64,000 nt of DNA. It comes from Chloroflexota bacterium (GTDB lineage Bacteria; Chloroflexota; Dehalococcoidia; Lucifugimonadales; UBA3495). The notes under the pieces are model-generated. The model was not told the origin of the DNA, did not search any database, and worked only from the letters and a program-made list of their open reading frames with translations. Shown piece after piece: positions 4,246 to 40,890 of this stretch (within the stretch, counting starts at the first letter, position 1; each line of letters begins with the position of its first letter). A program made the translations under genes and the position numbers. The DNA is taken from contig JACZUF010000001.1 of NCBI GenBank assembly GCA_022573285.1, positions 109,044-173,043 of the forward strand, given 5' to 3'.

Positions 4246-4992
4246 ATGCAGGTCGACTCGACATTGGCGGACGAACTGCTGGACAAGGTCCGGGAGGCCT
4301 ACTCCAAGGCTGCGGACAGTCCTCGGGACCCCCATCCATTCCCCATCGGATATGACTTCGCCCTGAGTCTGGGATATCCGGAAGACCTCTTGCAAAGTCT
4401 CCCTGAGTCATCCGTGGAACGTTTCACCGGGGTGTCCAACGTGTCGGTCTTCGCCGAGATTCCGGCCGGGTCCACAGTTTTGGATTTTGGCTGCGGAGCG
4501 GGCATGGACTCATTGATCGCGGCGGCGAAGACGGGGCCGGATGGCCGGGTGCACGGAGTTGACTTCAGCCCGTCGATGTTGTGCTACGCGCGCACTGGAG
4601 CCGCAGAGGCTGGCGCGGCCAACGTCGAATTCCAGGAGTCGGAAGGACAGCGGCTCCCCTTCGCCGACGGCATGTTCGACGTTGCCTTGTTGAACGGAAT
4701 CTTCAACCTCAACCCCTACCGTGCCGGTCTCTTCCAGGAACTGGCCCGGGTCATCCGCCCCGGAGGAGTCCTGTACGGCGCGGAGATAGTCCTCCGGGAG
4801 CCGATGGACGAAGAGGAACGGGCCGGCCTCGCCAACTGGTTCTCTTGAGTGGCCGGCGCCAAGGAAGGCGTTGCCTTCCTGGAAGAGTTCCGGGCCGCTG
4901 GGTTCGCCAACGCGGAGATACTTCGGACCAGCAGAAACGCGCGCACCAATAATCCCAAGTCCCTGGCGGCTGATATAATTGCCCAGAGATAA
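4246..4992 (+). CDS. Selenoprotein: ArsM-like SAM-dependent methyltransferase (Sec201 at UGA 4846-4848)
   Basis: The frame opens at ATG 4246 (GGAG eight bases upstream), meets UGA at 4846-4848, and continues in frame for 47 more codons to TAA at 4990-4992, giving 248 residues if UGA is read as selenocysteine. The Rossmann SAM motif is VLDFGCGAGMD (about 78-88) and the post-UGA part reads VAGAKEGVAFLEEFRAAGF. This matches the ArsM-type C-terminus, where a metalloid-binding Cys stands at the UGA position. Against the three ArsM cysteines, this protein has Ser89, Gly151 and Sec201, so arsenite methylation is uncertain. A hairpin follows the UGA. The gene is followed 54 bases later by a homologous selenoprotein gene. 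Alternative: a truncated 200-residue protein, unlikely because the downstream segment is conserved in kind and open. Confidence 0.85.
4862..4880 (+). promoter_or_regulatory. Putative bacterial SECIS hairpin after UGA 4846
   Basis: Arms AGGAAGGC (4862-4869) and GCCTTCCT (4873-4880) form a perfect 8-bp stem with loop GUU. The loop begins 21 bases after the UGA and has G in its first position, as described for bacterial SECIS elements read by SelB. Confidence 0.75.
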
Positions 4993-5046
4993 TAGAGAGA
5001 CCGGCCAGGGATTATCGCAGACAAAACTCCGATTTGGGGGAAAGAA

Positions 5047-5820
5047 ATGGCCACTCAGATTGCGCCCGAAGTAGATATCTTACGCAGAGAGATCCAGGAG
5101 AAATACACCGAGGTAGCAAGTAGTCCCGAGCTGACCTTTCACTTCCACCATGGCTTACCCCTGGCCAAGATTCTGGAGTATCCCGAAGACCTTTTGGCCG
5201 GCCTGCCGCCGGAGGCCGTGGAGTCTTTCGCCGGAGTGGGCAATCCCTTCTCCGTGGGCGAGATCGCTCCCGGCGAAACGGTGCTGGACATCGGCTCGGG
5301 GTGCGGCTTCGATTGCATGATCGCCGGCAGGTTCGTCGGTCCCACCGGCAAAGTGATCGGCGTGGACATGACCGACGCCATGTTGGAACGGTCCCGGAAG
5401 ACCGCCAAAAGCCTGGGGCTCGCCCAGGTCGAATTCAAGAAGGGCTTCGCCGAGGAATTGCCCGTCCCCGACAATTCGGTGGACGTAGTCATCTCCAACG
5501 GCGTGATCAATCTGACTCCCGACAAATATGCGGTGTTCAAAGAGGTTTTCCGGGTCTTGAAGCCCGGCGGACGCCTGCATCTGGCTGACATTGTGGTCTA
5601 CAAACAGGTGCCCGACGAGGCCAAAGAAGACGTGGACCTCTGGACCGCTTGAATCGGCGGCGCTCTCCTGGCAGGAGAGTATCTTGACGCCATACAGAGT
5701 TCCGGCCTGGCCGATGTGGAACTGGTATCCACCAAAGACGTGTTCTTGGGGGCGGGGGGTGAAGAGAGTGCCCACAACTTCGAGACCATGGGCGCCAACA
5801 TCCGGGCCAGAAAGCCGTAA
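5047..5820 (+). CDS. Selenoprotein: ArsM-like SAM-dependent methyltransferase (Sec202 at UGA 5650-5652)
   Basis: ATG 5047 follows GGGGGAAAGAA. The frame reaches UGA at 5650-5652 and continues 55 codons to TAA at 5818-5820, giving 257 residues with Sec202 in the motif DLWTA-U-IGGALL. The N-terminus has a conserved His-rich segment (FHFHHG, residues 31-36), then the SAM motif VLDIGSGCGFDC (79-90), GVDMT (105-109) and the post-motif stretch ISNGVINLTPDK. Compared with characterised ArsM, Cys90 matches the first metalloid-binding Cys, the second is Gly152, and the third is Sec202. The enzyme should transfer a methyl group from SAM to a soft metalloid or thiol-type acceptor; the substrate is not known. 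It is closely related to the gene at 37002 and probably co-transcribed with the one at 4246. Confidence 0.9.
5663..5679 (+). promoter_or_regulatory. Putative bacterial SECIS hairpin after UGA 5650
   Basis: CTCTCCT (5663-5669) pairs perfectly with AGGAGAG (5673-5679) around the loop GGC, which starts 17 bases after the UGA. The same stem occurs in the paralogue at 37618-37634, with one base pair changed from U-A to U-G. Confidence 0.85.
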
Positions 5821-5844
5821 TCAAACAACCGGAATCCTAAACGA

Positions 5845-5876
5845 AAGGGCCTCCAACCGTGGCGGCGGAGGCCCTT
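5845..5876 (+). terminator. Possible terminator after the tandem selenomethyltransferase genes
   Basis: AAGGGCCTCC (5845-5854) pairs perfectly with GGAGGCCCTT (5867-5876) across a 12-base loop, 24 bases after the stop codon. The 3' side has only GTTATGT rather than a clear U-tract, so termination strength is uncertain. Confidence 0.5.
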
Positions 5877-6100
5877 GTTATGTCAATGAGCCGCGGCATC
5901 GTAAACCCAATCGGGTCCCGGTCCAGCTTGAACTGGGTATCTCTTTGGGTTTATGATTGGTCAACCGCCAGGTACTGCTTCAGGTATCCGGCAGCGCAAA
6001 TTTCCCCGTCCGCGATTCGCCCTAAAGAACGGCGCGCCGATTTTCGGCGGCCGTTAAGTATCTCTCTTTTGCGGTAGGTGGACCAGGCATATACGATTAG

Positions 6101-7957
6101 ATGGTAATCCTCATTCGTATCACCAAGATTGCGTGGCAGTTCCGCGCCCGCCTGATCTTTGCTTATCTGAGCTTCATAGCCGCGATCGGCGTCTCCCTGC
6201 TCATACCCCATATATTCGGTGAAGCCATCGACCTCCTGGTCGCCGTCGATGGAGACGGCGTCGTCGGAAAAGCAGTCAGCACCAGCACCCTCGCCTACCT
6301 AGCCCTGGCTCTTCTTGGCGCCAGCTTGTTGCGCGGTTTCCTGGATTTCGCCCGCACCTACTGCACGGACTCTCTGTCCCAGAAGGTCTCTTACGACATC
6401 CGCAACAAGTTCTACGACAAGCTCCAGCACCTGAGTTTCGCCTACCACGACAAGGAACACACCGGTGAGTTGATGTCCAAGGCCACGGCGGACGTCGAGG
6501 CGATCCGGCGGTTCGTCAACATGGGCTTGGTCCGCGCGCTGGAAGTTGTCGTCCGCCTAGTGGCCCTGCTATTGATCTTGAACCTCATGAACTGGCAGCT
6601 AACCCTCATCAGCCTGGCCTTTGTGCCCTTCATCATCATCCGCTCTTCCTTGGTCATGGGAAGGCTCCGGCGGATGTGGCTGCAGGTCCAGCTGCGGATG
6701 GGCGAAGCGGTAACAATCCTTCAGGAGAACCTGGTCGGCATCCACGTGGTGAAGGCCTTTGCCTCCGAGGAATTCGAGAAGAAGAAATTCGCCAAGAAAG
6801 CCCAGGAACTGCGGGAAGAGTACTTCCAGTCGGAGCGGCTGCAGGGCACAAATAGCGCCTGGATGACCTTCTTCTTCACCTCGGGCTTGGGCCTGATTCT
6901 CTGGTACGGGGGATGGGAAGTGATCCGGGGAAACATGTCCCCCGGCGACCTGACCAAATTCATCCTCTACCTGAGCCAGTTGACCTTCCCCATCCGGATG
7001 TCATCCTTCATCATCAACTCCTTCTCCAGGGCCATCACTTCGGGCGGCCGCATCTTCGACGTTCTGGACGCCGAATCTCCGGTGGTGGAGAAACCAAACG
7101 CCAGGGTATTCGAGAGGCCCCAGGGACGCGTGGAATTCGAAAATGTGTCTTTCGCCTACGAGGGGCGGATGCCGGCATTGCAGCACCTCAACATCTCGGC
7201 CGAGCCGGGCCAGATAACCGCCATCCTGGGCGCTCCCGGCAGCGGCAAGAGCACCATCGTCAACCTGCTGCCCCGGTTCTACGACGTTAACGAAGGGCGC
7301 ATCACGATAGATGGCCAGGACATCCGGGAGTTTACATTGGAGTCCCTGCGCCACAACGTGGGGATCGTCCAACAAGATGTTTTTCTGTTCGGCGCCACCA
7401 TCCACGACAACATCGCCTACGGAGTAAAAGACGCCACCCGGGAAGACGTGATCCGCGCCGCCACCGTGGCCCAACTCCACGATCACATCGAGTCACTGCC
7501 CGACGGCTACGACACCTGGGTCGGGGAGCGCGGCGCAACCCTTTCCGGCGGCCAACGCCAACGGCTGTCCATCGCCCGCAGTATCCTGATCGACCCGCCG
7601 GTCCTGATCTTGGACGACTCCACATCCAGCGTCGATGTCCAGACCGAACGTATGATTCACCGGGCAATGGTCAACGTGATGAAGGACCGGACGACCTTCG
7701 TAATTGCCCACCGCCTGAGCACCGTCCGGGAAGCGGACCTGATTGTGGTGTTGAAAGACGGCCAGATCGCGGAGCAGGGGACCCATGAAGAACTCTTGGC
7801 GGCAAACGGCTTCTACCGCGATATCCACGACCTCCAATTGCTGCCTCAAGAGGAGTTGCTGTTGGACGCCTCTCTGACTCCAGAGAGCGGTATTCAGGCC
7901 GACGGCGCCGGTGGCGGCGGGAGGCCACGTCTGGCTTCTGAATTAGGAGACGACTGA
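6101..7957 (+). CDS. ABC exporter half-transporter, degenerate-site subunit
   Basis: A 618-residue fused membrane-ATPase protein with six transmembrane helices (about 15-310) and a C-terminal ATPase. Walker A is GAPGSGKST, the signature is LSGGQRQRLSIARS and the H-loop is IAHRLSTV. Walker B ends LILDDSTS: the catalytic Glu is replaced by Asp. This is the usual state of one subunit in heterodimeric exporters of the TM287/288 or BmrCD type, where one of the two ATP sites is inactive. Its stop codon overlaps the start of the next ABC gene (TGATG), so the two are translationally coupled and should form one heterodimer in the inner membrane. Substrate unknown; drugs or lipids are typical for the family. 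Confidence 0.92.
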   Translation: MVILIRITKIAWQFRARLIFAYLSFIAAIGVSLLIPHIFGEAIDLLVAVDGDGVVGKAVSTSTLAYLALALLGASLLRGFLDFARTYCTDSLSQKVSYDIRNKFYDKLQHLSFAYHDKEHTGELMSKATADVEAIRRFVNMGLVRALEVVVRLVALLLILNLMNWQLTLISLAFVPFIIIRSSLVMGRLRRMWLQVQLRMGEAVTILQENLVGIHVVKAFASEEFEKKKFAKKAQELREEYFQSERLQGTNSAWMTFFFTSGLGLILWYGGWEVIRGNMSPGDLTKFILYLSQLTFPIRMSSFIINSFSRAITSGGRIFDVLDAESPVVEKPNARVFERPQGRVEFENVSFAYEGRMPALQHLNISAEPGQITAILGAPGSGKSTIVNLLPRFYDVNEGRITIDGQDIREFTLESLRHNVGIVQQDVFLFGATIHDNIAYGVKDATREDVIRAATVAQLHDHIESLPDGYDTWVGERGATLSGGQRQRLSIARSILIDPPVLILDDSTSSVDVQTERMIHRAMVNVMKDRTTFVIAHRLSTVREADLIVVLKDGQIAEQGTHEELLAANGFYRDIHDLQLLPQEELLLDASLTPESGIQADGAGGGGRPRLASELGDD

Positions 7958-9879
7958 TGCGAGCTGCGGGACCGGGAGGAGGAGTCGGCGGCATGATGGG
8001 CGGCATGCGGGGCATGGGCGCACACGGGATGAACGTCGCCAACATGGACAATCTGACCGACGATACGATTGTCGGCTCGGCGTACGACCACAAGGTCGTG
8101 GTCCGGTTGATGACCTACATCTGGCCCTACAAGCGGGATGCCTTCATCGCCTTGGCCGCAGTGCTGGTCTATACCCTTGGCAACGTGGCCGTCCCCTGGT
8201 TGATATTGAAAGGCATCACCTGGGCCATCGAACCCGGCGACATCTCGCACCTGCACATAATCGGCCTCATCTTCGTAGGCGTCACCATCATCCATTTCGG
8301 AGCGAATTTCGTCCAGTTCGTCTACATGCCCAAGGTCGGGCAGGGGATCCTTTATTCCCTGCGCACCGGCATGTTCAACCACCTGCAGGAGCTTTCACCT
8401 TCGTTCTTCCACCGCACGCCGGTGGGCCGCATCATGTCCCGGAGCCAGAGCGATGTCCTCCAACTCCAAGAGACCTTTGAACTGATTGTCCAGAGCTTTT
8501 CGGACATCCTCAGCTTGGTGGGCATCATCATCATCATGGTGGTGATCGACTGGCAGTTGGCGCTGGTCACCATGAGCATCCTGCCGGTGCTCTTCTTCGT
8601 GCTGGGTTATTGGCAGAAGTTCGCCCGGCACTCTTTCATGCGCATCCGCCGGGCCATCGCCATGGTCAACGGCGAGTACAACCAGAACATCACCGGAGTC
8701 CGGGTCGTGGAGAGCTTCAACCGGCAGGAAACCAATATGGAGCACTTCGACGAACTGAACACCGAGCACTTGAACGCCAACCTGGAAGCCAGCCGGTACT
8801 CCGGCGCACTCCAGCCGTTTGTGGAAGTCCTGATGGGGATCGGAATGGGTTTCGGCGTTGTTCTGATGGGCGGCATCATGGTCAAAGGCGGAAGTCTCGA
8901 CTATGCGGTAATGCTGGTCTTCGCCCTATATATCCAACGGTTCTTCGAGCCGGTGCGCCACCTGACGATGCAGTACAGTCAACTGCAGCGGGCCATGGCC
9001 GCCGGCGTTCGCATCTTTGAGGTCTTGGACCTGAAACCCGAGGTGGTGGACAAGCCCGGCGCCATCGAGTTGCCCGAGATACGAGGTGAGATCAAGTTCG
9101 AAGACGTGAGCTTCCACTACGTGCCCGGCGTGGAGGTGTTGAAGGGAATCAATCTGCACATCAAGCCGGGACAGAACGTGGCCTTGGTCGGCTCCACCGG
9201 CGCCGGCAAGAGCACCTTCGTGACCCTGATACACCGGTTCGCCGACGTTACGAATGGGCGCATCACCGTTGACGGCCACGACATCCGGGACGTTACCCGC
9301 CATTCGCTGGTCAGTCAGATGAGCATGGTGCTGCAGGAGCCCTACCTGTTTTCCGGCACGGTGGCCGACAACATCCGTTACAACGACGAAAACGCCACCG
9401 ACGACGACGTGGTGGCCGCCGCCCAGACCGTTGGGGCCCACGACTTCATCATGTCCCTTAATCTGGGTTACAACACGGTGCTGGCCGAACGGGGCATCAA
9501 CCTAAGCGTGGGCCAGCGGCAGTTGCTCAGCTTCGCCCGGGCGGTGGTCGGGAACCCGCGGGTCATCATACTGGACGAGGCTACCGCCAACATCGACACC
9601 CATACCGAAGTTCTGATTCAGCGGGCTCTGCAGCGGGTGTTGCAGGGCCGGACTTCCATCGTCATCGCCCACCGGCTCTCCACGGTGCGGAACGCCGACA
9701 ACATCGTGGTGTTGGACCACGGCGAGTTGGTGGAGATGGGCAGCCACGAAGAACTGCTGGCCAAAAAGGGTGGAGTTTACGCCAGGCTATACGCGGTCAA
9801 TTATAACCTTCCCACCGACGATGATGAGCAATCGCTCCAGGGAGGGCCGTCCTTGGCGCCGGTGCCGGCCGACGACTGA
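7957..9879 (+). CDS. ABC exporter half-transporter, catalytic-site subunit
   Basis: A 640-residue ABC exporter subunit whose ATG overlaps the stop of the preceding gene by one base. The first 30 residues are rich in Gly and Met (GGVGGMMGGMRGMG), followed by six membrane helices (about 55-345). Walker A is GSTGAGKST, Walker B is VIILDEAT with the catalytic Glu intact, and the H-loop is IAHRLSTV. Its signature motif is LSVGQRQL instead of LSGGQ. Paired with the Asp-variant Walker B of its partner, this places one degenerate and one competent ATP site in the dimer, exactly the pattern known for asymmetric exporters. A strong terminator follows. Confidence 0.93.
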   Translation: MRAAGPGGGVGGMMGGMRGMGAHGMNVANMDNLTDDTIVGSAYDHKVVVRLMTYIWPYKRDAFIALAAVLVYTLGNVAVPWLILKGITWAIEPGDISHLHIIGLIFVGVTIIHFGANFVQFVYMPKVGQGILYSLRTGMFNHLQELSPSFFHRTPVGRIMSRSQSDVLQLQETFELIVQSFSDILSLVGIIIIMVVIDWQLALVTMSILPVLFFVLGYWQKFARHSFMRIRRAIAMVNGEYNQNITGVRVVESFNRQETNMEHFDELNTEHLNANLEASRYSGALQPFVEVLMGIGMGFGVVLMGGIMVKGGSLDYAVMLVFALYIQRFFEPVRHLTMQYSQLQRAMAAGVRIFEVLDLKPEVVDKPGAIELPEIRGEIKFEDVSFHYVPGVEVLKGINLHIKPGQNVALVGSTGAGKSTFVTLIHRFADVTNGRITVDGHDIRDVTRHSLVSQMSMVLQEPYLFSGTVADNIRYNDENATDDDVVAAAQTVGAHDFIMSLNLGYNTVLAERGINLSVGQRQLLSFARAVVGNPRVIILDEATANIDTHTEVLIQRALQRVLQGRTSIVIAHRLSTVRNADNIVVLDHGELVEMGSHEELLAKKGGVYARLYAVNYNLPTDDDEQSLQGGPSLAPVPADD

Positions 9880-9904
9880 CCCAGGAGCGCCAAGCTTGAA
9901 ACTC

Positions 9905-9933
9905 AAAAGGCCCGCTTGATAGCGGGCCTTTTT
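9905..9933 (+). terminator. Rho-independent terminator after the ABC exporter pair
   Basis: AAGGCCCGC and GCGGGCCTT form a stem around the six-base loop TTGATA and are followed by a T-run (to 9933). The A-run on the 5' side lets it also serve the convergent DsbA-like gene on the minus strand. Confidence 0.9.
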
Positions 9934-9964
9934 GATGCCGTTAAGGAATCGGGCCAGGAGTTGG

Positions 9965-10621
9965 TTACGAATCTGAAGCCGGTGGGACTCCCTCGTTCAG
10001 GAAACGCTCCATGGCCGACTTGAAGATGTTGTAGGGATGGGCGCCGGTGAAGAGCAGGTTGCCCACCAAGAAGGTGGGGATGCCGCTGATCCCGTACTTC
10101 AGCGCCTCCTGGTACTGGCCCATGACCGCATCGGCGTAGGTCTTCTCCTCCAGGTGCTTCACCATGTCGTCGGCGTCCAGGTCCACGCTGTGGGCCACCG
10201 CGTGAAGCACTTCGAGCTCGCCCAGGTCCTTCCGGTCCTCCCAGAACGCCTTGTAGGCGGCGTGGTGGAACTCCATGAACTTACCGTGCTGCTGGGCGTA
10301 CTCGGTGGCCTCCAGGGCGTACAGAGTATTGGGGGTCCGGCCCGGCGGCTTCATGATCAGACCGGCATCTTTGGCCTGGCCCCGCAGCGGCTCGGACAGT
10401 TCGTCGGCGGTCTCGCCGGGACGTTGGGGCCGGTCCGCGCCTTCTTTGGGGGTGTCGGGACGCAGCAGATAGGCCCGGCCCTCAACGGTAATGTCGTACT
10501 CGTTGGCCAATTTGTCGACCCGCTCCAGGCCGACGTAGCACCAGGGTCAAATATAGTCGTACCAAACCGCGATACGAACCGGCTCGTTGTCCTGTTTGGT
10601 GGTCTGGGCTTCTTCGGCCAT
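9965..10621 (-). CDS. Selenoprotein: DsbA/FrnE-like thiol oxidoreductase (Sec25 in U-P-W-C)
   Basis: On the minus strand ATG 10621 is preceded by a perfect AGGAGG seven bases upstream. The frame hits UGA at 10549-10547 and then runs open to 9965, 218 residues in all. Around the UGA it reads WYDYI-U-PWCYVGLERV, so Sec25 replaces the first Cys of the CPWC active site and Cys28 is the partner. The rest fits the DSBA domain of the FrnE/HCCA-isomerase type: a helical insert (about 45-165) and the cis-Pro loop GISGIPTFLVG. It should catalyse cytosolic thiol-disulfide or related redox reactions; no signal peptide is visible. A start after the UGA would delete the active site, which argues strongly for Sec insertion. 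The hairpin at 10514-10534 is the candidate SECIS. Confidence 0.92.
10514..10534 (-). promoter_or_regulatory. Putative bacterial SECIS hairpin after UGA 10549
   Basis: In the mRNA, GTCGGCC pairs with GGTCGAC (seven pairs, one G-U) around the loop UGGAGCG. The loop starts 19 bases after the UGA and has G at its second position. Confidence 0.7.
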
Positions 10622-12227: not shown

Positions 12228-12234
12228 AGTACCG

Positions 12235-20878: not shown

Positions 20879-21544
20879 CTAGGCGACTCCCAACCCCAGA
20901 GTGATCCCCACATCATCGACTCTCTCCCAGCAGAACTCCGGCTTAAGGGCCAACACCCGCTCCCGCTCCACCGACGCCCATAACGCCGCTCCGCTCCGAG
21001 CGCCGGCCCGCCGGGCGCACTCGATGTCCCGGTGGCTGTCTCCCACGAAGAGGCATTCATCCGGAGCAACATCCAGCGATCCCATCACATCCTGGAGGCC
21101 GGACGGGTCCGGCTTGGGGGCCATACCATCCGCAAAGAACAGGACCCGGTCAATTACGGGGCCCAGTCCTGAATGCTCAAACTCGGGCACCCCGAAGACC
21201 TGCCGCTTGTCGGACAGGACCGCCGTGCGGTAGCCGTTTTCCTTGAGTTGCTTCAAGAGTTCCGCAACCCCCGGATACAGGCGGCGCTCCTGCCAAACGA
21301 CGGCATGGTAAAAACCCATGTAGGTATCGACGACCTCTTGCTGGCCGCCGGGGAAGAACCAGGCCAGATGATCAAGGAAAGGGCGGGAATACTCCCGGCC
21401 CAGGTCGGCGGCAACGGGCCGGGGATAAGCCAAGGCGTCGGCAGTCTGGTTCATCAGACTCAGGTGGATGTCCCAACTGTTCCACAGGGTCAGGTCCCAA
21501 TCGAACACCACCGCCTTTAGCTGTAAGTCACCGGCATCTTGCAA
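20879..21544 (-). CDS. HAD superfamily hydrolase (phosphoglycolate phosphatase-like)
   Basis: A 221-residue HAD subclass I protein. Motif I is VVFDWDLTLWNS with both Asps present, motif II LSDKR, motif III Lys in APKPDPSG, and motif IV FVGDSHRDIECARRAG. Both catalytic Asps make phosphatase activity likely, unlike the HAD protein at 10754. Gph-like or PpaX-like substrates (2-phosphoglycolate, pyrophosphate) are possible, but this cannot be settled from sequence alone. It converges on lipA with 26 bases between the stops. Confidence 0.85.
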   Translation of the reverse strand: MQDAGDLQLKAVVFDWDLTLWNSWDIHLSLMNQTADALAYPRPVAADLGREYSRPFLDHLAWFFPGGQQEVVDTYMGFYHAVVWQERRLYPGVAELLKQLKENGYRTAVLSDKRQVFGVPEFEHSGLGPVIDRVLFFADGMAPKPDPSGLQDVMGSLDVAPDECLFVGDSHRDIECARRAGARSGAALWASVERERVLALKPEFCWERVDDVGITLGLGVA

Positions 21545-27174: not shown

Positions 27175-27432
27175 AATTCCGCTGGGAACGGGAGTAGTAA
27201 GGATACCCTGCCCAAGAGAGCCGGTGGTTGGTGCGAATCCGGCGGCAGAAGGACCCCGAACTCGCCCGGGAGCGGCCCGCCTGAAACAGCAGTAGGGCGC
27301 GGCGGTTGACACCGATATAAAGTCTTCGAGTGGCCAGGCGGCAGCAATCCCGATGAATCGGGACGCCGGGCCAGAAGAAGGGTGGTACCACGGGAACCAC
27401 AAGCCCGTCCCTTCAGTGGGATGGGTTTTTTT
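27175..27432 (+). ncRNA. T-box leader, likely Leu-responsive, upstream of ilvB
   Basis: The leader begins with a Stem I sequence (GGGAGTAGTAAGG, AAGAGAGCCGGTGG, GGTGCGAATCC). A specifier loop reads CCGAACTCGCCCGGGAGC; CTC at 27261-27263 occupies the codon position, so tRNA-Leu is the expected ligand. A Stem III hairpin (ATCCCGAT/ATCGGGA) follows, then the T-box core AGGGTGGTACCACGG (27378-27392). The terminator has stem CCCGTCCC/GGGATGGG (27404-27425) and seven Ts. Uncharged tRNA-Leu should favour the antiterminator and permit transcription of ilvB-ilvN-ilvC-leuA. The specifier assignment is by comparison with the second T-box at 59990. Confidence 0.92.
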
Positions 27433-32774: not shown

Positions 32775-32812
32775 ACCTAGGGCCATCTACGCCAATAATA
32801 GGTCCCTGGCTC

Positions 32813-33022: not shown

Positions 33023-36000
33023 ATGACCAGCGAACGAACGCAACGGCGAATCGACAGTCTGCTCGATCAAGCTGAGGAAGCGATTGCACAGCTGGATTGG
33101 CCGGTTGTCCAGAGCCGCGCCCAAGCGGTCATTGCCCTCGATCCAGCCAACCCCGACGCCACCAACTACCTGGCCGCCGCCGACCGGGCTTTGAATGTCT
33201 CCGACCCACCATCAACCATTGAGCCCACCACTGTCTCAGACCAACCCTCCTCCTTCGCCAATGGCCGCTACCAAGTCCGGAAACTCCTGGGAGAGGGTGG
33301 CAAGAAGAAGGTCTACCTGGCCCAGGACACGACATTGGACCGGGAAGTAGCCTTCGCGCTGATCAAGACCGAGGGCCTGGACGAAACCTCCCGCACGCGC
33401 ATCCAGCGTGAGGCCCAGGCCATGGGCCGGTTGGGCTCCCACCCTCACATAGTCACGGTCTTCGACCTGGGCGAGGAGCCTTCGACAAGCTCAGGCCAGG
33501 GCCAGCCCTACATGGTCACCGAGCTCATGGGCGGCGGAGACGTGGAAAGCCTGATCGAAGACGCCCCCAACCATCTGCTTCCATTGGAGCAAGCGATCAA
33601 GATCGCCAAAGAGACCTGCCGGGGCCTGGAGTTCGCCCACAGCCGGGGCATCGTCCACCGGGACCTTAAGCCGGGCAACGTCTGGCTGACGGGAGACGGG
33701 GTAGCCAAGATAGGCGACTTCGGCCTGGCAGTTTCCCTGGACCGCTCCCGGCTGACCCAAGAGGGCATGATGGTCGGCACCGTGTCCTACATGCCCCCGG
33801 AGCAGGCCATGGGCGGAGAAGTGACCCCTCGGTCTGACCTGTATTCCCTGGGGGCCATGCTCTATGAAATGGCGACCGGCCGCCCGCCCTTCTTGGGTGA
33901 CGACTCGGTGGCGATCATCGGACAGCACATCAACACCCCTCCGGTGGCCCCCACCTGGCACAACGGGCAGTGCCCCCGGCCCCTGGAAGCGCTGATCATG
34001 CGTCTCTTGGCCAAGGACCCGTCGGAGCGGCCGGATTCGGCCGCCGACGTTCTATCAGCCCTGGACGCCATCGACCTGACCACAAGCGCGGAACAACCAG
34101 AAGCGTCCGGTGAAGAGGCTCACGCCCTGGACAGCCTGGCCGGCGGGGTCTTCGTAGGCCGGCAGCGGGAGATGGGAGAGTTGAAGGCCGCCCTGGAAGA
34201 TGCATTGTCCGGCCGGGGCAGGTTGGTCACTCTGGTGGGAGAGCCGGGTATCGGCAAGACCCGGACGGCCTTGGAGTTGGCGACCTATGCTGGACTGCGC
34301 CAAGCCCAAGTGTTATGGGGCCGCTGCTACGAGGGGGAGGGCGCGCCGCCTTACTGGCCCTGGGTGCAGGCCATCCGCTCCTACGTACGGGACGTGGACC
34401 CGGAGCAACTGCGCTCGGAGATGGGCGCAGGGGCTGCCGACATTGCCGAGGTGGTATCCGACGTAAGGGAGCAACTGCCCGGCCTGCAAGCGCCGCCCCA
34501 ACTCGAGCCGGAGCAGGCGAGATTCAGGCTATTCGATTCCATCACCGCGTTCTTGAAGAGCGCCGCCCGTCGCAAGCCCTTGGTCCTGGTCCTGGACGAC
34601 TTGCACTGGGCCGACCATCCGTCTTTGCTGCTGCTGGAGTTCGTGGCCCGGGAGTTGGCCAGCGCCCGCGTGCTGGTGATTGGCACCTACCGGGACGTGG
34701 AATTGTCCAGGCAACATCCCCTTTCACGGACCCTGGGAGAGCTGACCCGGGAACGACTCTTTCAAAGGGTGTTGTTGCGCGGGTTGGACCAGGAGGACGT
34801 GGCTCGGTTCATCGAGCTGGTGTCCGGGGTGAATCCGCCATCTGGATTGACTGAGGCGGTGCACCGGCAGACCGAGGGCAACCCCCTCTTCGTCACCGAG
34901 GTGGTGCGGCTGCTGGTGCAGGAAGGGGAACTGACCCAGGACCCTTCGACCGGCTCAGGACGAGCGGGGGAGAGTGACACTTGGAGCGTCCGTATCCCCG
35001 AAGGGGTCCGCGAGGTTATAGGGCGGCGGTTGGACCGGTTGTCGGGGCGGTGCAACGACACATTGACCATAGCCTCGGTGATAGGCCGTGAGTTCACGTT
35101 GGAAAATCTAAGCCCATTGATCGAAGATATGACCGAAGACCGGTTACTTGAGGTGCTGGAGGAGGCGTTGTCGGCTCGGGTGATCGAAGAGTTGCCCCGG
35201 ACGGTGGGCCGTTACCAGTTCACCCACGCCCTGATCCAAGAGACCTTGGCCGGGGAGCTTTCCACCACCCGAAGGGTGCGGCTACACGCCCGCATCGCCG
35301 AAGCTCTAGAGGATATGTACGGCGAAGAAGCCGAGGCCCACGCCGCCGAGCTAGCCCACCATTTCGCCGAGGCCCAGACGGTGCTGGGGACCGAAAAGCT
35401 GGTGCGTTACTCGCTGCTGGCCGGCGAACGGGCGCTGGCCACCTATGCCCATGAGGAGGCCCTAGCCCACTTCCAGATTGGGCTGGCCAGCAAAGAAGGG
35501 CGGCCCATTGACGCCGAGACGGCAGCCCTATGTTTCGGCCTGGGAGTGGCCCAGACCGCCACTCTTGAGACACACCAGATTCAGGACGCTGTGGCCAGCC
35601 TGACCCGCGCCTTCGACTACTACGTCGAAGTGGGAGAGGTAGAGCGTGCTGTGGCCGTAGCGGCGCACCCTTTCTCAATGTTGCCGGGGCAGACTACGGG
35701 TGCGTCCCAGCTTATCACCCGAGCCCTGGCATTGGTGCCGTCCGATTCTCACGAAGCAGGACGTCTACTGTGCCGCTATGTCACCGTCCTGGTCATCGAA
35801 GAAATGGACTACGAGGCTGCCCAAGAGGTCTTCGGCCGGGCCTTGGATATCGCCCGCCGGGAAGGTGATGAAGCTCTGGAGATGCGCATCCTGGCTGGCG
35901 CTACTGATCCCGACGTGAACTACCTGCGCCTTCAGGGGGCCCTGGTGAAGAGCCTGCGGGCCCTGGAGTTGGCACAGAACGCCGACGATCCGCGTACCGA

Positions 36001-36910
36001 GGTTAACGCCCGCTATTTTGGTGCGCTGGCTCAATTGATCATGGCCGATCTCGAGGGGATGCGGCAACAGGCGGCGGCCATGCTGGCGCCGGCGGAGCGG
36101 CTACGCGACCGTTACTTGCTGGCCGGAGCGCATTACTCGAACCAGATAGCTTCCAGCCTCGCAGGCGATTGGCAATCCTCTAGAGACTTCAGCGACCGTG
36201 GCCTGGCGGTATCGCCCATGGACCCGCGTCTCCTCTTTGGTCGAGTGATGTTGGAGTCGGAGGTGGGCGAAATTGATCAGGCCTTCGCATACTTGGAACG
36301 TTTTTTGGAGACCATGCGGCTGAGTGCCCCAGGACCGACGTTGTTGTATTCATCGACGGCTTTACTGATACCATCGGTCGCCCGAATCACCGGCCGGATG
36401 GACCAACTCGACGTCGCCGAGGAGGTTGCCGAAACGGTGCTCTCGTCCCCAGCTGTGACTCCAATGGTTTCCATGATCTCCAGGTGCGGGCTGGCGATGC
36501 TGGCGGTACTGCGGAGCGACGTTGCATCCGCAGAGGAACAGTACGCCGCCCTGGAATCGGCGAGAGGCATCGGAATACCGGCCAGCGTCATGACTATCGT
36601 CCGCGCGGTACCCATCAGCTTCACACCTACCAATCATCTGCTGGGGCTCTTGGCCCAGACCATGGGCAATCTTGACCGGGCAATGGCCCATTTCGAGGAT
36701 TCCCTGACTCTCTGCCGCAATGCCGGTTTCCGGCCGGACCTGGCCTGGACCTGCTGCGACTATTCTGACGCCCTGCTCCGACGCAACAACTCCGGAGACA
36801 GGTCTAAAGCCATGGCTTTGTTGGACGAGTCGCTGGCCATCTCCAGGGAGCTGGGCATGCGGCCCCTGTTGGAGCGGGCGCTGTCCCGCCGGGACATCTT
36901 GACCGCCTAA
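33023..36910 (+). CDS. Ser/Thr protein kinase - AAA ATPase - TPR signalling protein
   Basis: A 1295-residue multidomain regulator. Residues 83-350 form a protein kinase domain: glycine loop GEGGKKKVYLA, beta-3 Lys in ALIKTEG, catalytic HRDLKPGNVW (about 211), DFGLA (about 232) and PPEQA. Next comes an AAA_16-type ATPase opening FVGRQREM (about 376), Walker A GEPGIGKT (about 407) and Walker B VLDDLHWADH (about 520), resembling MalT/adenylate-cyclase-associated ATPases. From about 750 to the end lie TPR-like helices. It is likely cytoplasmic, phosphorylating and scaffolding partners; no membrane segment or DNA-binding domain is seen. Two REP-type repeats (33479, 34943) are embedded in frame. 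A remnant of a second copy of its C-terminus lies at 37937. Confidence 0.88.
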   Translation: MTSERTQRRIDSLLDQAEEAIAQLDWPVVQSRAQAVIALDPANPDATNYLAAADRALNVSDPPSTIEPTTVSDQPSSFANGRYQVRKLLGEGGKKKVYLAQDTTLDREVAFALIKTEGLDETSRTRIQREAQAMGRLGSHPHIVTVFDLGEEPSTSSGQGQPYMVTELMGGGDVESLIEDAPNHLLPLEQAIKIAKETCRGLEFAHSRGIVHRDLKPGNVWLTGDGVAKIGDFGLAVSLDRSRLTQEGMMVGTVSYMPPEQAMGGEVTPRSDLYSLGAMLYEMATGRPPFLGDDSVAIIGQHINTPPVAPTWHNGQCPRPLEALIMRLLAKDPSERPDSAADVLSALDAIDLTTSAEQPEASGEEAHALDSLAGGVFVGRQREMGELKAALEDALSGRGRLVTLVGEPGIGKTRTALELATYAGLRQAQVLWGRCYEGEGAPPYWPWVQAIRSYVRDVDPEQLRSEMGAGAADIAEVVSDVREQLPGLQAPPQLEPEQARFRLFDSITAFLKSAARRKPLVLVLDDLHWADHPSLLLLEFVARELASARVLVIGTYRDVELSRQHPLSRTLGELTRERLFQRVLLRGLDQEDVARFIELVSGVNPPSGLTEAVHRQTEGNPLFVTEVVRLLVQEGELTQDPSTGSGRAGESDTWSVRIPEGVREVIGRRLDRLSGRCNDTLTIASVIGREFTLENLSPLIEDMTEDRLLEVLEEALSARVIEELPRTVGRYQFTHALIQETLAGELSTTRRVRLHARIAEALEDMYGEEAEAHAAELAHHFAEAQTVLGTEKLVRYSLLAGERALATYAHEEALAHFQIGLASKEGRPIDAETAALCFGLGVAQTATLETHQIQDAVASLTRAFDYYVEVGEVERAVAVAAHPFSMLPGQTTGASQLITRALALVPSDSHEAGRLLCRYVTVLVIEEMDYEAAQEVFGRALDIARREGDEALEMRILAGATDPDVNYLRLQGALVKSLRALELAQNADDPRTEVNARYFGALAQLIMADLEGMRQQAAAMLAPAERLRDRYLLAGAHYSNQIASSLAGDWQSSRDFSDRGLAVSPMDPRLLFGRVMLESEVGEIDQAFAYLERFLETMRLSAPGPTLLYSSTALLIPSVARITGRMDQLDVAEEVAETVLSSPAVTPMVSMISRCGLAMLAVLRSDVASAEEQYAALESARGIGIPASVMTIVRAVPISFTPTNHLLGLLAQTMGNLDRAMAHFEDSLTLCRNAGFRPDLAWTCCDYSDALLRRNNSGDRSKAMALLDESLAISRELGMRPLLERALSRRDILTA
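33479..33495. repeat. REP-type short repeat inserted in frame in the kinase gene, copy 1
   Basis: CCTTCGACAAGCTCAGG encodes PSTSSG in a loop of the kinase domain. This sequence is recognisable as a common intergenic palindromic repeat family (CCTTCGAC-n-GCTCAGG) in many bacterial genomes; here it lies inside a gene. Confidence 0.75.
34943..34967. repeat. REP-type short repeat inserted in frame in the kinase gene, copy 2
   Basis: The sequence begins CCTTCGACCGGCTCAGGACG and ends AGCGG, encoding PSTGSGRA between the ATPase and helical regions. Same repeat family as at 33479, longer copy. The insertion keeps the frame. Confidence 0.75.
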
Positions 36911-37001
36911 CAAATGTACGCTAAATTGGTAATGTCTGTAACCATATCTCATAATCGATGGCATCTTTAGAAGAATCCAGGGTTGCCCAAAGGTGTGGAT
37001 C

Positions 37002-37778
37002 ATGACTGTGCGAGTTGCGCCACCGACAGAGGTTCTGCGGAAGGAAGTTCAACACCGATATACCGAGGTGGCGACCAAACCTGACCAGACTTTCCATTTC
37101 CACCATGGCTGGCCCATGGCCGAAATTTTGGGCTATGCGATGGACCGGGTAGACGCCATGCCCCTTCAGGCGGTTGAGTCCTTCGCTGGTGTGGGCAACC
37201 CCTTTTCTCTGGGGTCTATCCAGCCAGGTGAGACCGTTCTCGACGTGGGTTCGGGCGCCGGGTTCGACTGCTTCATAGCGGGGCAGGCGGTCGGCCCAAA
37301 AGGCAAAGTCATAGGGGTGGACATGACTGAGGCCATGCTGGAAAAGGCCCGCGGCACCGCTCAGCAGATGGGTCTGGAACAGGTGGAGTTTCGTCACGGC
37401 TTCATTGAAGAACTACCAGTGCCGGACGCCTCGATTGACGTGGCCATTTCCAACGGAGTGATAAACCTGTGCCCGGATAAGTACAAGGCGTTTGAAGAGG
37501 TCTTCCGGACGCTGAAAGCGGGTGGCCGTCTGTATCTCGCCGATATAGTGGTGCACAAACCGGTCCCGGACGCCGCCAAGGCAAATGTAGACCTCTGGAC
37601 CGCTTGAATCGGCGGAGCTCTCCTGGAGGGAGAGTACCTGGATGCCATCGGGCAAGCCGGTTTCGTGGACGTGGAGTTGGTATCCACCGCCGACGTCTTC
37701 GCCGGAGCCGAGGGGGAGGCTAACGCCCACGCCTTTGAGACCCTGGGCGCCAACATTCGGGCCAGGAAACCAGCTTAG
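37002..37778 (+). CDS. Selenoprotein: ArsM-like SAM-dependent methyltransferase (Sec202 at UGA 37605-37607)
   Basis: ATG 37002 has AAAGGTG six bases upstream; a GTG three codons earlier is a less likely start. The frame passes UGA at 37605-37607 and ends at TAG 37776-37778, giving 258 residues. It aligns without a gap at the Sec position to the protein at 5047 (both Sec202), sharing FHFHHG, VLDVGSGAGFDC with Cys90, ISNGVINLCPDK with Gly152, and the DLWTA-U-IGGALLEGEYL motif. A 47-base window around the UGA differs at only three positions from its paralogue. It lies between the kinase gene and a fragment of a second copy of that kinase gene, hinting at a duplication or recombination event. A weak promoter may be TTGGTA/CATAAT at about 36927-36956. 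Substrate unknown. Confidence 0.9.
37618..37634 (+). promoter_or_regulatory. Putative bacterial SECIS hairpin after UGA 37605
   Basis: CTCTCCT (37618-37624) pairs with GGGAGAG (37628-37634), six Watson-Crick pairs and one U-G, around loop GGA, which starts 17 bases after UGA. Relative to 5663-5679 the paired A is replaced by G, keeping the stem. Confidence 0.85.
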
Positions 37779-37936
37779 GCCACGGGGACAGGGGCAGCTC
37801 AGATGCTGCCAGGCATTGCAACGCATCGATTTTATCGAGACTTAGGTCCCCACAATCTTCATTCCCGTGCATTCCCGTTTTCCCGGCCTCTTAATTACCT
37901 GTCTGATGACCGGATGCGGTCGCTTAACGGTAAGAC

Positions 37937-38107
37937 TTCACTTGGACCTGCTGCGGCTACGCCGACGCTTTGCCTGATCGAGACGGCGAGGAAGACCGGC
38001 TCAAGACCGTGCCCCTGCTGGACGAGTCCTTAGCCATCTCCAGCGAACTGGGCATGCGGCCCTTGATGGAGCGGGTGCTGTCCCGGCGGGAGATACTCGG
38101 GGCGTAG
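37937..38107 (+). pseudogene. 3' remnant of a duplicated kinase/AAA/TPR gene
   Basis: Fifty-six codons ending TAG 38105-38107 match the C-terminus of the 33023 protein: WTCCGYADAL against WTCCDYSDAL, LLDESLAISSELGMRPL against LLDESLAISRELGMRPL, and LSRREILGA against LSRRDILTA. Upstream of 37937 the similarity stops and no long frame exists. The remnant indicates that a second, diverged copy was once here and has been truncated; the selenomethyltransferase gene lies between the two C-terminal ends. Confidence 0.85.
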
Positions 38108-38260
38108 ACTGCTCAGTCAGGCGGTTCCGCCAAATCAATATTGAACTCATTCACGCCTCACCTTTCTCAATGACCATCGATGGCGAGCTAATAGCGCCGC
38201 CATTCTGTGTTTCAAGCTACCGGCAACCCCTTTACCCAATTCGATCCACGGGAGACGACG

Positions 38261-39220
38261 ATGCAACCGCTGAGCAGTATGGGCGTCCTGCTACCCACCA
38301 GAGGAGTTCTGGTGTACGCCAAAGGCGCCAAGCCCCGGGTCGAACTCAACTGGCAGATGGCGGAGACCGCCGAGCGGACCGGGTACGACTCCGTTTGGGT
38401 TGGCGACAGCATCACCTCCAAACCCCGATTGGAGCCGCTTGCGGTGATGGCTGCCCTTGCCGCACGCACCCACCGCGTCAAGATCGGGACGGCTGTCATG
38501 CTGATCGCTCTGCGCCACCCGGTGCACCTTGCTCACGCCATCGCGACGATCGACAACATCTCGAACGGCCGGATCGTGTTGGGCGTAGGAGCCGGGAGGA
38601 GCAACAACCAGATGTTCGTGGATGAACATGCCGCCGTGGGTGTCCCAATCACCGAACGGGCTGCCCGGATGGAAGAAAGCATCGATATTCTCCGGAAACT
38701 ATGGTCTCTCGACAACGTTTCCAACCCATCCGGATTCTACCCGTTTACCGGCGTGACCCTGGAGCCGAGACCGGTCCAACAACAGGTGCCCATATGGATT
38801 TCGAGCAATTGGGTGCAACGCGGCCTTCGGCGAGTGGCGGCCCAGGGCGATGGGTGGATCACCAATGTCCCTTCGACGGAGCTGTTCACCCAATGCTGGC
38901 GGAAAATTGAAGATAAGGCCGGAGAGTTGGACCGGGATATAGGCGACATGCGGCGTTGTCTCTACATCTCAGTCAATCTCAATGAGGACGCCGAGGCTTT
39001 GTCGGATGGCGATCAATTCATGCGGGCTTACTACAGCACGCCCTACGAAGTGATAAGCAAGCAATTACTGTGTGTCTTCGGTCCGGCCCAAAAATGTATC
39101 GACACGATCCTGCGGTACAAGGAAGCCGGAGCCGACTATTTCATCGTCCGGTTCGCCTCCCCGAATCAGATGGAACAGTTGGATAAATTCACCGAGTCCG
39201 TGATTCCCTCTCTGGACTGA
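38261..39220 (+). CDS. LLM class flavin-dependent oxidoreductase
   Basis: A 319-residue luciferase-like monooxygenase-fold protein. DSVWVGDSI and LAARTHRVKIGTAVMLIALRHPVHLAHAIATID are hallmarks of the family, with NGRIVLGVGAGR in the flavin or F420 site. Many relatives in Actinobacteria and Chloroflexota use F420 (methylenetetrahydromethanopterin-reductase-like). ATG 38261 has GGGAG seven bases upstream; the frame's first ATG at 38207 lacks one. The substrate is not known. Confidence 0.87.
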   Translation: MQPLSSMGVLLPTRGVLVYAKGAKPRVELNWQMAETAERTGYDSVWVGDSITSKPRLEPLAVMAALAARTHRVKIGTAVMLIALRHPVHLAHAIATIDNISNGRIVLGVGAGRSNNQMFVDEHAAVGVPITERAARMEESIDILRKLWSLDNVSNPSGFYPFTGVTLEPRPVQQQVPIWISSNWVQRGLRRVAAQGDGWITNVPSTELFTQCWRKIEDKAGELDRDIGDMRRCLYISVNLNEDAEALSDGDQFMRAYYSTPYEVISKQLLCVFGPAQKCIDTILRYKEAGADYFIVRFASPNQMEQLDKFTESVIPSLD

Positions 39221-39255
39221 GCTTGGCGGCGTTTGCTTAACGCCTGACAGGCGGG

Positions 39256-40251
39256 CTAGACCAGTTTCATCTGGAAGCCGCTGTCTTGTTTCTGACCCCG
39301 GGCGTTCAGGTGGACCGCCGGGTAGCCCAGCTCTCGGAGATGGGCGGCCAGTTCGGGGAAGCCGTTTACGGTGTAGACCTGTTTGGGCGAAACAGCCTTC
39401 ACGTACTCCACCAGTTCGTTGAAGTCGGGATGGTCGCTGTAGGGCAGGCTGGCATCGGCTCCCCGGCCCCAAGGCATGCTGCCCGTGGTAGCCCAGCCGG
39501 TCAGTTCCAACGTCCGTTTTCCCCGGAAGCCCTTCAGGGCCTCTCGGCGCTTTCCTGGGGGGAACAGCAGGACCCAGCCCTCGGGCCAGTCGCCTTCGAA
39601 CACGTTCACCTGCCCAGGAAATTCCACCCCGGCTTCCAGGTACACCTGGGCGCCCAGGTAGATGCTCTCCTCGACCATTACGTCGAATCCCTCGGCCAAT
39701 AGGTGGTGGAGTATCTCCTGGGATTTGCCCAATCGCCAACCTTGGACCACCGGCCGCTCGCCGCGGGACAGCCACATCCTCAGGGTCCGGTAGGCGGTCT
39801 CCAACACCTGCTCCTGGGGCGGGAACACGTACTCGGGCCGGCCGTAGGTGCACTCCATGACCAGGGTGTCGCAGGGCACTACCTCCAAGGGCTCGTTGGT
39901 GGGGCTGGGGCGGCTCTTGATGTCGCCGGTGTAGAGCAGCCTTTCCCCGGTTTCCTTGGATTCGATCAACGCCTGAGCGGAACCGAGGCAATGGCCGGCG
40001 GGATGGAGGGTCATGGTGAAGGCCGGGGCGTCAAAGGGCTGGTGGTAGGGGAGGAGGATGGGATCGGAATCTTTGAGGTAATCACCCAACAGCTTGGCGG
40101 TGTTGGGGGTGAGAACGGGCCGGTGATGGCGTCCGGTATGGTCGGAGTGGGCGTGGGAGATCAGGCTGAACTCCCGCCTTCTGGTGGAGTCTAACCAGAG
40201 GTCCAGTTCGGGCAGGTAAACCCCGCTCTTAAACACCGCCTGCACGTACAC
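39256..40251 (-). CDS. Metallo-beta-lactamase-fold protein, mRNA 3'-end processing factor/exonuclease-like
   Basis: A 331-residue MBL-fold hydrolase. The metal motif is SHAHSDH (His33, His35, Asp37, His38), followed by HPAGHCLGSAQ and YTGDIKSR with the bridging Asp. A TYGRPEY segment and SDHPDFNEL near the end match the YSH1-like exonuclease family often linked with DNA ligase and DEXH helicases. Here no ligase or helicase gene is adjacent. The C-terminal PKQVYTVNGFPE contains the final conserved region. Nuclease action on RNA or DNA is inferred from family. Confidence 0.82.
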   Translation of the reverse strand: MYVQAVFKSGVYLPELDLWLDSTRRREFSLISHAHSDHTGRHHRPVLTPNTAKLLGDYLKDSDPILLPYHQPFDAPAFTMTLHPAGHCLGSAQALIESKETGERLLYTGDIKSRPSPTNEPLEVVPCDTLVMECTYGRPEYVFPPQEQVLETAYRTLRMWLSRGERPVVQGWRLGKSQEILHHLLAEGFDVMVEESIYLGAQVYLEAGVEFPGQVNVFEGDWPEGWVLLFPPGKRREALKGFRGKRTLELTGWATTGSMPWGRGADASLPYSDHPDFNELVEYVKAVSPKQVYTVNGFPELAAHLRELGYPAVHLNARGQKQDSGFQMKLV

Positions 40252-40368
40252 CTCTCCCCGCCGCTATTCTCGCTGGAGGCAACGCGGCCAAGTATATCAT
40301 GGGGCCCTGGCCCGTCTTCATGGGGTCTGCCATTCACTGGGATAGGTGTCTCCCGCCGGATTATGCGG

Positions 40369-40374
40369 TATAAT
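40369..40374 (+). promoter_or_regulatory. Candidate -10 element of the selenoperoxiredoxin gene
   Basis: TATAAT lies 52 bases before the ATG at 40426 in the region divergent from the MBL gene. The position 17 bases further up reads GTGTCT, a poor -35. A small GC-rich hairpin (GGCGC.. GGCGCC) lies in the leader. Confidence 0.45.
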
Positions 40375-40425
40375 CTGCTAGGCGCGCCTGGAGGCGCCCA
40401 AATCTCAATCAAAAAAGGCGGGAGT

Positions 40426-40890
40426 ATGCCGGCAGAAGTTGGCGATGTAGCCCCCGATTTCAAACTTCCTTCCCCCGATGGGGACGTTTCCCTTGGCGAT
40501 TACAAGGGCAACAAGATAGTCGTTCTTTCCTTCCACGTATTCGACTTCACCGCTGGTTGAACGACGCAGGCAGCTTCGTTCCGCCAGGAATACAAGCGGT
40601 TCGAGGAAAACAATGCTCAGGTACTGGGCATAAGCTGTGACACCGTTCACTCCCACCGTGCTTGGACCACCGCGTTGGGGGGCCTGCCCTACCCCGAGTT
40701 GTCCGATTTCCATCCCAAGGGCGACACCACCAAGGCGTACGGGTTGTGGAACGAGGAGCGCGGGGCCGGCAACCGGGCCGTGATCATCGTCGACAAAGAG
40801 GGTGTGATCCGATTTCGGGAGACCTACCAACCTGGAATTCTACCCGACCCGGGCACCATCTTCGAAGTGGTGGAAGGGCTCAACAAGTAG
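40426..40890 (+). CDS. Selenoprotein: AhpC/TSA-type peroxiredoxin (Sec45 at UGA 40558-40560)
   Basis: ATG 40426 (GGCGGGAG upstream) starts a 154-residue thioredoxin-fold protein if UGA at 40558-40560 is read as Sec. The sequence around it is FDFTAG-U-TTQAASFRQEY, which is the peroxidatic site TxxC of peroxiredoxins with Sec in place of Cys45 and the conserved Thr42 kept. Cys71 in GISCDTVHSH could be a resolving residue. Later parts read WTTALGGLPYPELSDFHPKGD and NRAVIIVDKEGVIRF, as in AhpE/Bcp-like enzymes. It should reduce peroxides with thioredoxin or a similar reductant. The start at 40363 has no ribosome-binding site. A terminator follows. Confidence 0.92.
40578..40591 (+). promoter_or_regulatory. 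Putative bacterial SECIS hairpin after UGA 40558
   Basis: GTTCC (40578-40582) pairs with GGAAT (40587-40591), four Watson-Crick pairs plus a terminal G-U, around the loop GCCA. The loop starts 22 bases after the UGA and has G first. It is the weakest of the five candidate hairpins. Confidence 0.5.

Follow-up and report, generated by a model that had tools for sequence, protein, structure and literature searches.

We report that five genes within a 64,000-nucleotide stretch of the genome of a Chloroflexota bacterium (assembly GCA_022573285.1, contig JACZUF010000001.1, positions 109,044 to 173,043; the whole stretch is hereafter called the window) each contain a single in-frame UGA codon, and that the reading of these codons as selenocysteine (Sec) is strongly supported. 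Three of the genes encode methyltransferases (MT1, MT2 and MT3) that depend on S-adenosylmethionine (SAM) and resemble the arsenite methyltransferase ArsM; the other two encode a DsbA-like protein and a peroxiredoxin (Prx). Taken as a whole, the conclusion that all five UGAs are decoded as Sec and that the methyltransferases are not canonical arsenite methyltransferases is one that we hold with high confidence. The MT2/MT3-type family extends over about a dozen phyla and keeps its UGA almost without exception.

Five genes with an in-frame UGA codon

Contig C18, whose right-hand end is the window, belongs to a draft genome that comprises 81 contigs and 3.17 Mb. The five frames had been proposed in a first-pass annotation made without database searches, and all of them were recovered: each contains exactly one in-frame TGA and then continues to a natural TAA or TAG stop (Table 1). 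A long in-frame run past a TGA is by itself weak evidence at a GC content of 61.5%, at which such runs are not rare (two other TGA-ended open reading frames (ORFs) of the window also stay open, for 163 and 47 codons), so it is homology rather than run length that must decide. A codon-usage scan recovered the same five genes across two runs, the first of which missed Prx and the second MT2; with competing frames filtered, it revealed no sixth UGA gene within the window, and the candidates at 21032 and 56509 were rejected for want of a Pfam match. MT3 has 258 residues, and its closest named relative is 91% identical (L190, from a Chloroflexi metagenome-assembled genome, MAG). Alternative starts are possible for MT3 (GTG at 36993) and Prx (ATG at 40363). 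FrnE is the name that we take to fit the DsbA-like gene. The window also contains two T-box leaders (27175-27415 and 59982-60246).

Table 1. Coordinates (window numbering) of the UGA-containing genes, their UGA codons and the hairpins downstream of them
Feature	Position	Strand	Remarks
MT1, divergent ArsM-like SAM methyltransferase	4246..4992	+	one in-frame UGA, Sec201 predicted; relatives L066 and L191 share the UGA position
MT1 UGA codon	4846..4848	+	
MT1 predicted bSECIS-type hairpin	4862..4880	+	8 bp, 3-nt loop
MT2, Sec-type ArsM-like methyltransferase	5047..5820	+	FHFHHG motif, Sec202 predicted
MT2 UGA codon	5650..5652	+	
MT2 bSECIS-type hairpin	5662..5680	+	8/8 family-hairpin pairs, loop GGC
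DsbA/FrnE-like protein (PF01323)	9965..10621	-	motif U-P-W-C, Sec25 predicted
DsbA-like gene UGA codon	10547..10549	-	
DsbA-like gene predicted bSECIS-type hairpin	10514..10534	-	9 bp, 3-nt loop
MT3, Sec-type ArsM-like methyltransferase	37002..37778	+	FHFHHG motif, Sec202 predicted; 70% identity to MT2
MT3 UGA codon	37605..37607	+	
MT3 bSECIS-type hairpin	37617..37635	+	8/8 family-hairpin pairs, loop GGA
Peroxiredoxin (Prx), AhpC/TSA family (PF00578)	40426..40890	+	motif TAGU, Sec45 predicted
Prx UGA codon	40558..40560	+	

Evidence for selenocysteine decoding

Each UGA had been suggested to occupy the position of a key Cys of its protein family, and the relatives bear this out. Among 245 genomes of the class, 34 matches of the MT3 type (E 1e-60 or better) were found, 30 with exactly one TGA and four with none; for Prx (E 1e-30), 13 of 15 matches had one TGA and two had none (Cys), and 55 matches were found for the DsbA-like protein, of which 34 have a single TGA, 17 lack one and four show other patterns. 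In the fetched methyltransferase loci the TGA falls into the Sec column, which is occupied by Cys in L052 and L054, the only Cys forms among them, and the fetched DsbA loci show Sec in 22 and Cys in eight of 30 cases. UGA or Cys is found at the site in all 30 DsbA rows, all 15 Prx rows and all aligned methyltransferase rows of the ArsM or Sec type, the remote paralogues L032-L034 (Pro, Ser and Phe at the site) having been set aside. Another remote paralogue, L035, was omitted from the comparison of fold energies and from the tree described below, as were loci repeating genes already included among the 34 methyltransferase matches.

The presence of the UGA forms is correlated with that of selB, which was matched in 51 of 57 genomes with any UGA form as against five of 17 with the Cys form only (Fisher p 3e-6). 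Taken separately, the figures are 23/28 versus 1/4 for the methyltransferase, 31/33 versus 6/16 for the DsbA-like protein and 13/13 versus 0/2 for Prx. In this comparison, DsbA rows with internal TAA or TAG (G108, G148, G135) were excluded, the second, stop-free row of G090 was set aside and G186 was moved to the Cys group after alignment; 11 DsbA rows were assigned to the UGA form by stop tag alone, their position being unseen, and the Cys form was likewise assigned by stop tag to DsbA rows G076, G061, G031, G070, G240, G152, G114 and G060 and to methyltransferase rows G135 and G129. In the class tree the all-Cys ArsM separates with support of 100/99, and the two Cys forms are nested in the UGA clade (100/100) and come from genomes that are not in the selB list, so that replacement of Sec by Cys in the methyltransferase appears to have occurred a single time among the genes sampled.

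The machinery for Sec incorporation, for which a search had been recommended, is complete: the genome encodes selA (559 bits, contig C32), selB (344 bits, above the cut-off, C9), selC, i.e. tRNA-Sec with the anticodon TCA (66 bits, C31), and selD (380 bits, C18, 104 kb to the left of the window). The selD gene (L021:4533-5579 plus, identical to C18:4533-5579) itself carries one in-frame UGA, in the motif HCAGUASK. At the same time UGA is a normal stop, as the first-pass annotation had stated: it terminates both genes of an ABC pair (ABC1, 6101-7957, and ABC2, 7957-9879), hence the code is not reassigned. Among the 44 non-overlapping ORFs of at least 150 amino acids in the window, 20 end with TAG, 17 with TAA and seven with TGA, and two of these seven ends are the UGAs of MT1 and MT3.

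Hairpins with what we take to be the geometry of the bacterial Sec insertion sequence (bSECIS) were found or predicted downstream of the UGA in the methyltransferases and in the DsbA-like gene (Table 1); in the window Prx the fold past the UGA is weak. In 76 distinct sequences of the MT2/MT3 family an 8-bp hairpin begins 9 nt past the UGA, with the loop GGA in 57 of them. Its cells are paired in 94.4% of cases, compared to at most 52% in slid registers, and two-sided changes were counted in 33 cells, compared to a mean of 6.6 and a maximum of 16 in shuffles that retain the effect of kinship; both pairing and covariation argue for a bSECIS hairpin in this family. When the fold energy was compared with that of synonymous recodings, the mean z was -1.37 just past the UGA; five gene windows off the hairpin had values from -0.03 to -0.59. 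Past the site, z was -1.11 for UGA-form rows (n=65) and -0.29 for Cys-form rows (n=23; p 4e-4; MT2 is counted twice among the methyltransferase rows, as L028 and L031), with group values of -1.26 for MT1 (n=3), -0.87 for DsbA (n=22) and -0.89 for Prx (n=13). We propose that SelA, SelB, SelC and SelD of this genome would decode the five UGAs as Sec and that it is almost certainly SelB, bound at the hairpin, that would have Sec inserted.

Distribution of the MT2/MT3-type family

A scan of genome contigs for loci of the MT3 type (METHYLTRANSFERASE) gave 285, and the figures for this family refer to the best 80 of these 285. According to the names in their records, the 80 loci represent about a dozen phyla or groups (Chloroflexi, Poribacteria, Methylomirabilota, Acidobacteria, Gemmatimonadota, Latescibacterota, KSB1, Nitrospirae, SAR324, Rhodospirillaceae and other Proteobacteria, Actinobacteria and Dormibacteraeota); the majority come from MAGs, for which the recorded name may be incorrect. 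The codon at the site is TGA in 79 loci and TAA in one, L199. The first-pass annotation had named two outcomes as adverse to its proposal, true stops at this place in homologues and a genome devoid of selB, selC and selD; with a single UAA among 80 loci and all of the machinery genes present, the proposal withstood both checks. This UAA lies at about position 4000 of L199, in a Methylomirabilota MAG. In 32 genomes of these loci, selB scored above the cut-off in 30, gave a partial match in one and none in the genome of L199. UAA without selB is what lost Sec decoding would leave, if the draft does not miss the gene by accident; this genome shows neither selB nor the shorter frames of about 400 amino acids (from their length presumably EF-Tu-like) that elsewhere pass the same search, and the absence of selB may therefore be a gap in the draft.

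Among the 120 database relatives of MT3 listed (of 7,996, and including the window's own entry), 118 stop right before the UGA, which agrees with the claim that the genes are invisible to standard gene calling, for MT3 as the sole protein searched. The exceptions are a partial entry (P0041) and one with Trp at the UGA (P0100), probably resulting from gene calling under a code in which UGA stands for Trp. Since the listed relatives are cut at the UGA and some carry the name arsenite methyltransferase, both the sequence and the name of such entries are probably misleading.

Arsenic-ligand columns of the methyltransferases

MT1, MT2 and MT3 share the class I SAM methyltransferase fold of the ArsM type, and the closest solved structures and the top-scoring curated families are ArsM or ArsM-named. 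However, at the columns of the three arsenic ligands of CmArsM, Cys72, Cys174 and Cys224, the window proteins possess Val, Gly and the predicted Sec, respectively. The Cys174 column contains Gly in 80/80 of the closest loci, and the Cys72 column Val or Thr in 80/80, although the latter is partly selected because one of the patterns of the locus scan includes [TV] there (neither pattern covers the Gly or the UGA column). The fetched class UGA forms likewise have Val/Thr and Gly at the two columns. These replacements make arsenite an unlikely substrate. In CmArsM neither the C174A nor the C224A variant methylates inorganic arsenic (iAs) or its monomethyl form (MMA), so that both residues are required even for MMA, while dimethylarsenite needs one thiolate only (PMC3877260). 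The scores against the ArsM family NF008823 (158.1 bits for MT1, 241.9 for MT2 and 247.8 for MT3) remain below its cut-off of 263. Devoid of two of the three ligands, the window methyltransferases would in all likelihood not methylate arsenite. The genome contains separate ArsM genes, two near-identical copies that have Cys in each of the three ligand columns (L029 and L030, at the end of C7 and the start of C47). A further feature of the MT2/MT3 clade is the FHFHxG motif, conserved near the N-terminus, with H32 and H34 almost invariant.

Sec-containing "arsenite methyltransferase" has been listed in two reviews, before the groups called "predicted" (PMC13188914, PMC9312934), and eight such selenoproteins of NF008823/PRK11873 were found in the Global Ocean Sampling (GOS) set of 2008 (PMC2398784). 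Like the proteins described here, they are ArsM-like SAM methyltransferases with Sec in the UxxG motif (PMC13188914, PMC2398784); the proteins of the window differ in the Val/Thr and Gly residues at the Cys72 and Cys174 columns, in scoring below the family cut-off and, in the MT2/MT3 clade, in the FHFHxG motif. Some of the published Sec arsenite methyltransferases may belong to the same subfamily, and our methyltransferases are new as a variant of a family that is already known. In comparison with CmArsM and AS3MT, they lack two of the three arsenic ligands, and the solved ArsM chains exceed the length of MT3.

Three NCBIfam families, NF041537 (ArsM_AhpD_UU), NF041536 (ArsM_DUF2284_UU) and NF047649 (MTase_UXPK_star), reportedly comprise double selenoproteins credited to Haft and Tolstoy (2025). 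NF041537 is the top family for MT1 and MT2 and the second for MT3, with the match confined to the methyltransferase part. The scores reach at most 252 of 510, 232 of 575 and 238 of 460 bits for the three families, respectively, and the window proteins lack the second Sec-bearing domain. In the literature searched, where the work of Haft and Tolstoy is represented by the NCBIfam families and a review table only, we found no description of the present subfamily.

Genomic context and possible substrates

A regulator of the ArsR type that contains a rhodanese domain is encoded near the methyltransferase in 11 of the 80 loci under a length filter (13 at looser settings) and at seven of 30 class loci, two of which are Cys forms. 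Other recurrent neighbours are a rhodanese-domain metallo-hydrolase, an MFS transporter, DsrE, an SQR-like oxidoreductase, OsmC and DUF4395 proteins. At least one recurrent family is present at 28 of 80 loci (551 kb) and at none of 88 control loci (608 kb, with some overlap between them), a contrast that is inflated, because the families were picked for recurring and the controls were taken from this genome and its class. Judging from their domains, we infer that sulfane sulfur is the common theme of these neighbours, and our guess is that the substrate is a soft one of the sulfur type. MddH and MddM1, which are soluble and SAM-dependent, detoxify H2S and methanethiol by S-methylation (PMC12904073) and act in a mode that matches this guessed function; the text of that paper nowhere mentions selenocysteine, so the guessed function has a precedent, without selenium.

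We tentatively suggest, with considerable doubt, that the selenolate at the place of ArsM Cys224, beside SAM, would hold or activate sulfide, a persulfide or a thiol for methylation and thereby detoxify it. The complete scenario is more speculative, and we consider it rather unlikely to hold in every part: a cross-phylum, nearly always Sec-containing methyltransferase subfamily would have shed the arsenic site and, with one selenolate (and the FHFHxG motif), would methylate reactive sulfur species under the control of a sulfur-sensing ArsR-rhodanese regulator, hidden from view by gene calls cut at the UGA, and Sec, where lost, would have given way to Cys (two genomes) or to a genuine stop codon (one genome).

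Besides the inflated contrast and the partly selected column mentioned above, several results weigh against the Sec and sulfur readings. None of the recurrent neighbour families is present at 52 of the 80 loci, and the window itself, which is among the controls with no matches, yielded no gene for a rhodanese, a DsrE or an SQR-like protein of these families. Six genomes with a UGA form (five with the methyltransferase, two with DsbA), all drafts, have no selB match at the threshold used, and the selB search also passes the shorter frames of about 400 amino acids in many genomes. In DsbA alone, UGA and Cys forms are not separated by the hairpin z (p 0.10). Finally, MT1 is distant (branch 2.2) and known from few relatives, lacks the FHFHxG motif and falls, together with L066, beside canonical ArsM, with weak support (81/91).

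Among the alternatives, the substrate may be another soft metal or metalloid that requires a single ligand (dimethylarsenite, mercury or selenide), with Sec as that ligand and the FHFHxG histidines assisting. This possibility is rather unlikely, though not without arguments: a single thiolate is enough for dimethylarsenite (PMC3877260), the two histidines are almost invariant, and two of the ArsR-type regulators, when scanned, score above the threshold of NF033788, a family of ArsR/SmtB metalloregulators. Yet these regulators bear rhodanese domains, the remaining recurrent neighbours are of the sulfur type, none of the neighbour families present in at least four loci was recognised as a metal pump (some families being unassigned), and the histidines are lacking in MT1 and L066. 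It is less probable that Sec serves as a redox switch or a side activity outside methyl transfer to a soft substrate, with a small metabolite as the true substrate, as in other class I methyltransferases, given that Sec occupies the place of an arsenic ligand of ArsM and that Sec or Cys is retained at this site in every aligned family member except L199. True arsenite methyltransferases, with Sec replacing Cys224 as a stronger arsenic ligand, would fit the ArsM-named structures and families and the naming in the two reviews, but the Cys72 and Cys174 columns, the behaviour of the CmArsM variants, the subthreshold scores and the separate three-Cys ArsM make this very improbable. Sequencing errors, pseudogenes or a reassigned code, which single UGAs in drafts and a possibly decayed gene in L199 might bring to mind, are already refuted for the five genes by the identical codon and column in 79 of 80 loci from other genomes, by TGA at the ends of both ABC genes, by the complete Sec machinery and by hairpin covariation.

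With Sec decoding and a non-arsenite role as the preferred reading, it may be asked whether the five genes act together. The first-pass annotation had proposed a joint selenium-dependent programme of redox and methylation, and this received no support from the neighbourhoods of 30 class methyltransferases, near which there are no ABC pairs, two DsbA relatives (L141, L164) and two weak Prx matches; a general cluster of methyltransferase, two ABC genes and DsbA is therefore rejected. Gene order is kept in near relatives only: ArgS-MT1-MT2-ABC1-ABC2 in L191 and a kinase-like gene before MT3 in L190.

The DsbA-like protein and the peroxiredoxin

Both proteins belong to kinds of selenoproteins that are already known (PMC13188914, PMC9312934). 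The DsbA-like protein (PF01323, 113 bits versus a cut-off of 25.6), with UxxC in the form of UPWC, shows no notable difference from form 1 of the DsbA-like selenoproteins (PF01323, UxxC) and is predicted to be a U-x-x-C thiol-disulfide oxidoreductase. Prx (PF00578, 124 bits versus a cut-off of 26) shares with the Sec-containing peroxiredoxins the Thr three residues ahead of Sec (TxxU, here TAGU), but differs from them in having Val instead of the Pro of the full PxxxTxxU motif (PMC13188914) and in scoring only 68.3 of the 270 bits for PrxU (NF040737). It is predicted to reduce peroxides, with the selenolate as the peroxidatic residue.

Density of UGA genes and other predicted selenoproteins of the genome

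The codon-usage scan covered C18 in full (173 kb) and a further 216 kb on other contigs, and the remaining candidates of the filtered scan were assessed by eye. On C18, seven UGA genes are backed by a family or by homologues (those five of the window, selD and a CcdA-like gene), as against one clear (OsmC-type) and one doubtful case in the other contigs. The unusual density claimed earlier is thus visible on C18, but it is suggestive only, because some genes escape the scan and the window had been pre-selected as rich, and we reject it as proof of a programme.

The CcdA-like membrane protein (L023:14453-15328 minus, C18, 4.6 kb to the left of the window) has an in-frame UGA that aligns with Cys of the homologues P0126, P0130 and P0159 (GIGC/GVGU), and many of its close database relatives stop at about 198 amino acids. 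Its gene comes after those of an HMA-domain protein and a MerR-type regulator (named by eye). CcdA is not named in one review (PMC13188914), and the literature that pairs CcdA with selenocysteine and selenoprotein seems to concern other matters. The OsmC-related selenoprotein (L183:12819-13268 minus) scores 166 bits against NF041052 (cut-off 95), and a second DsbA-like selenoprotein with the motif UPYC is encoded on C19 (L171:2446-3042 minus). A small ABM-like frame (L186:6218-6475 minus), whose UGA is not at an apparent Cys site, is doubtful and could reflect an error or gene decay. The frame L186 16662-18758 was rejected as two adjoining genes, for a CoA-transferase and an enoyl-CoA hydratase, that share a frame, and L021 13247-15022 resembles this case. 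At least nine selenoprotein genes are predicted in this genome, which exceeds the threshold of six for a selenoprotein-rich organism in one survey (PMC5029168).

Implications

Most prokaryotic selenoproteins are thought to act in redox reactions (PMC9312934). Here, a widespread methyltransferase subfamily retains its UGA almost invariably (79/80), though the arsenic site that would explain this codon is gone, which poses a chemical question: what is the role of a single selenolate in a methyltransferase? Among the named strains, both Actinomycetospora lemnae DW7H6 and A. cinnamomea DSM 45771 possess the UGA form together with selB and with ArsR-rhodanese, rhodanese-hydrolase and MFS neighbours, and they make this question testable.

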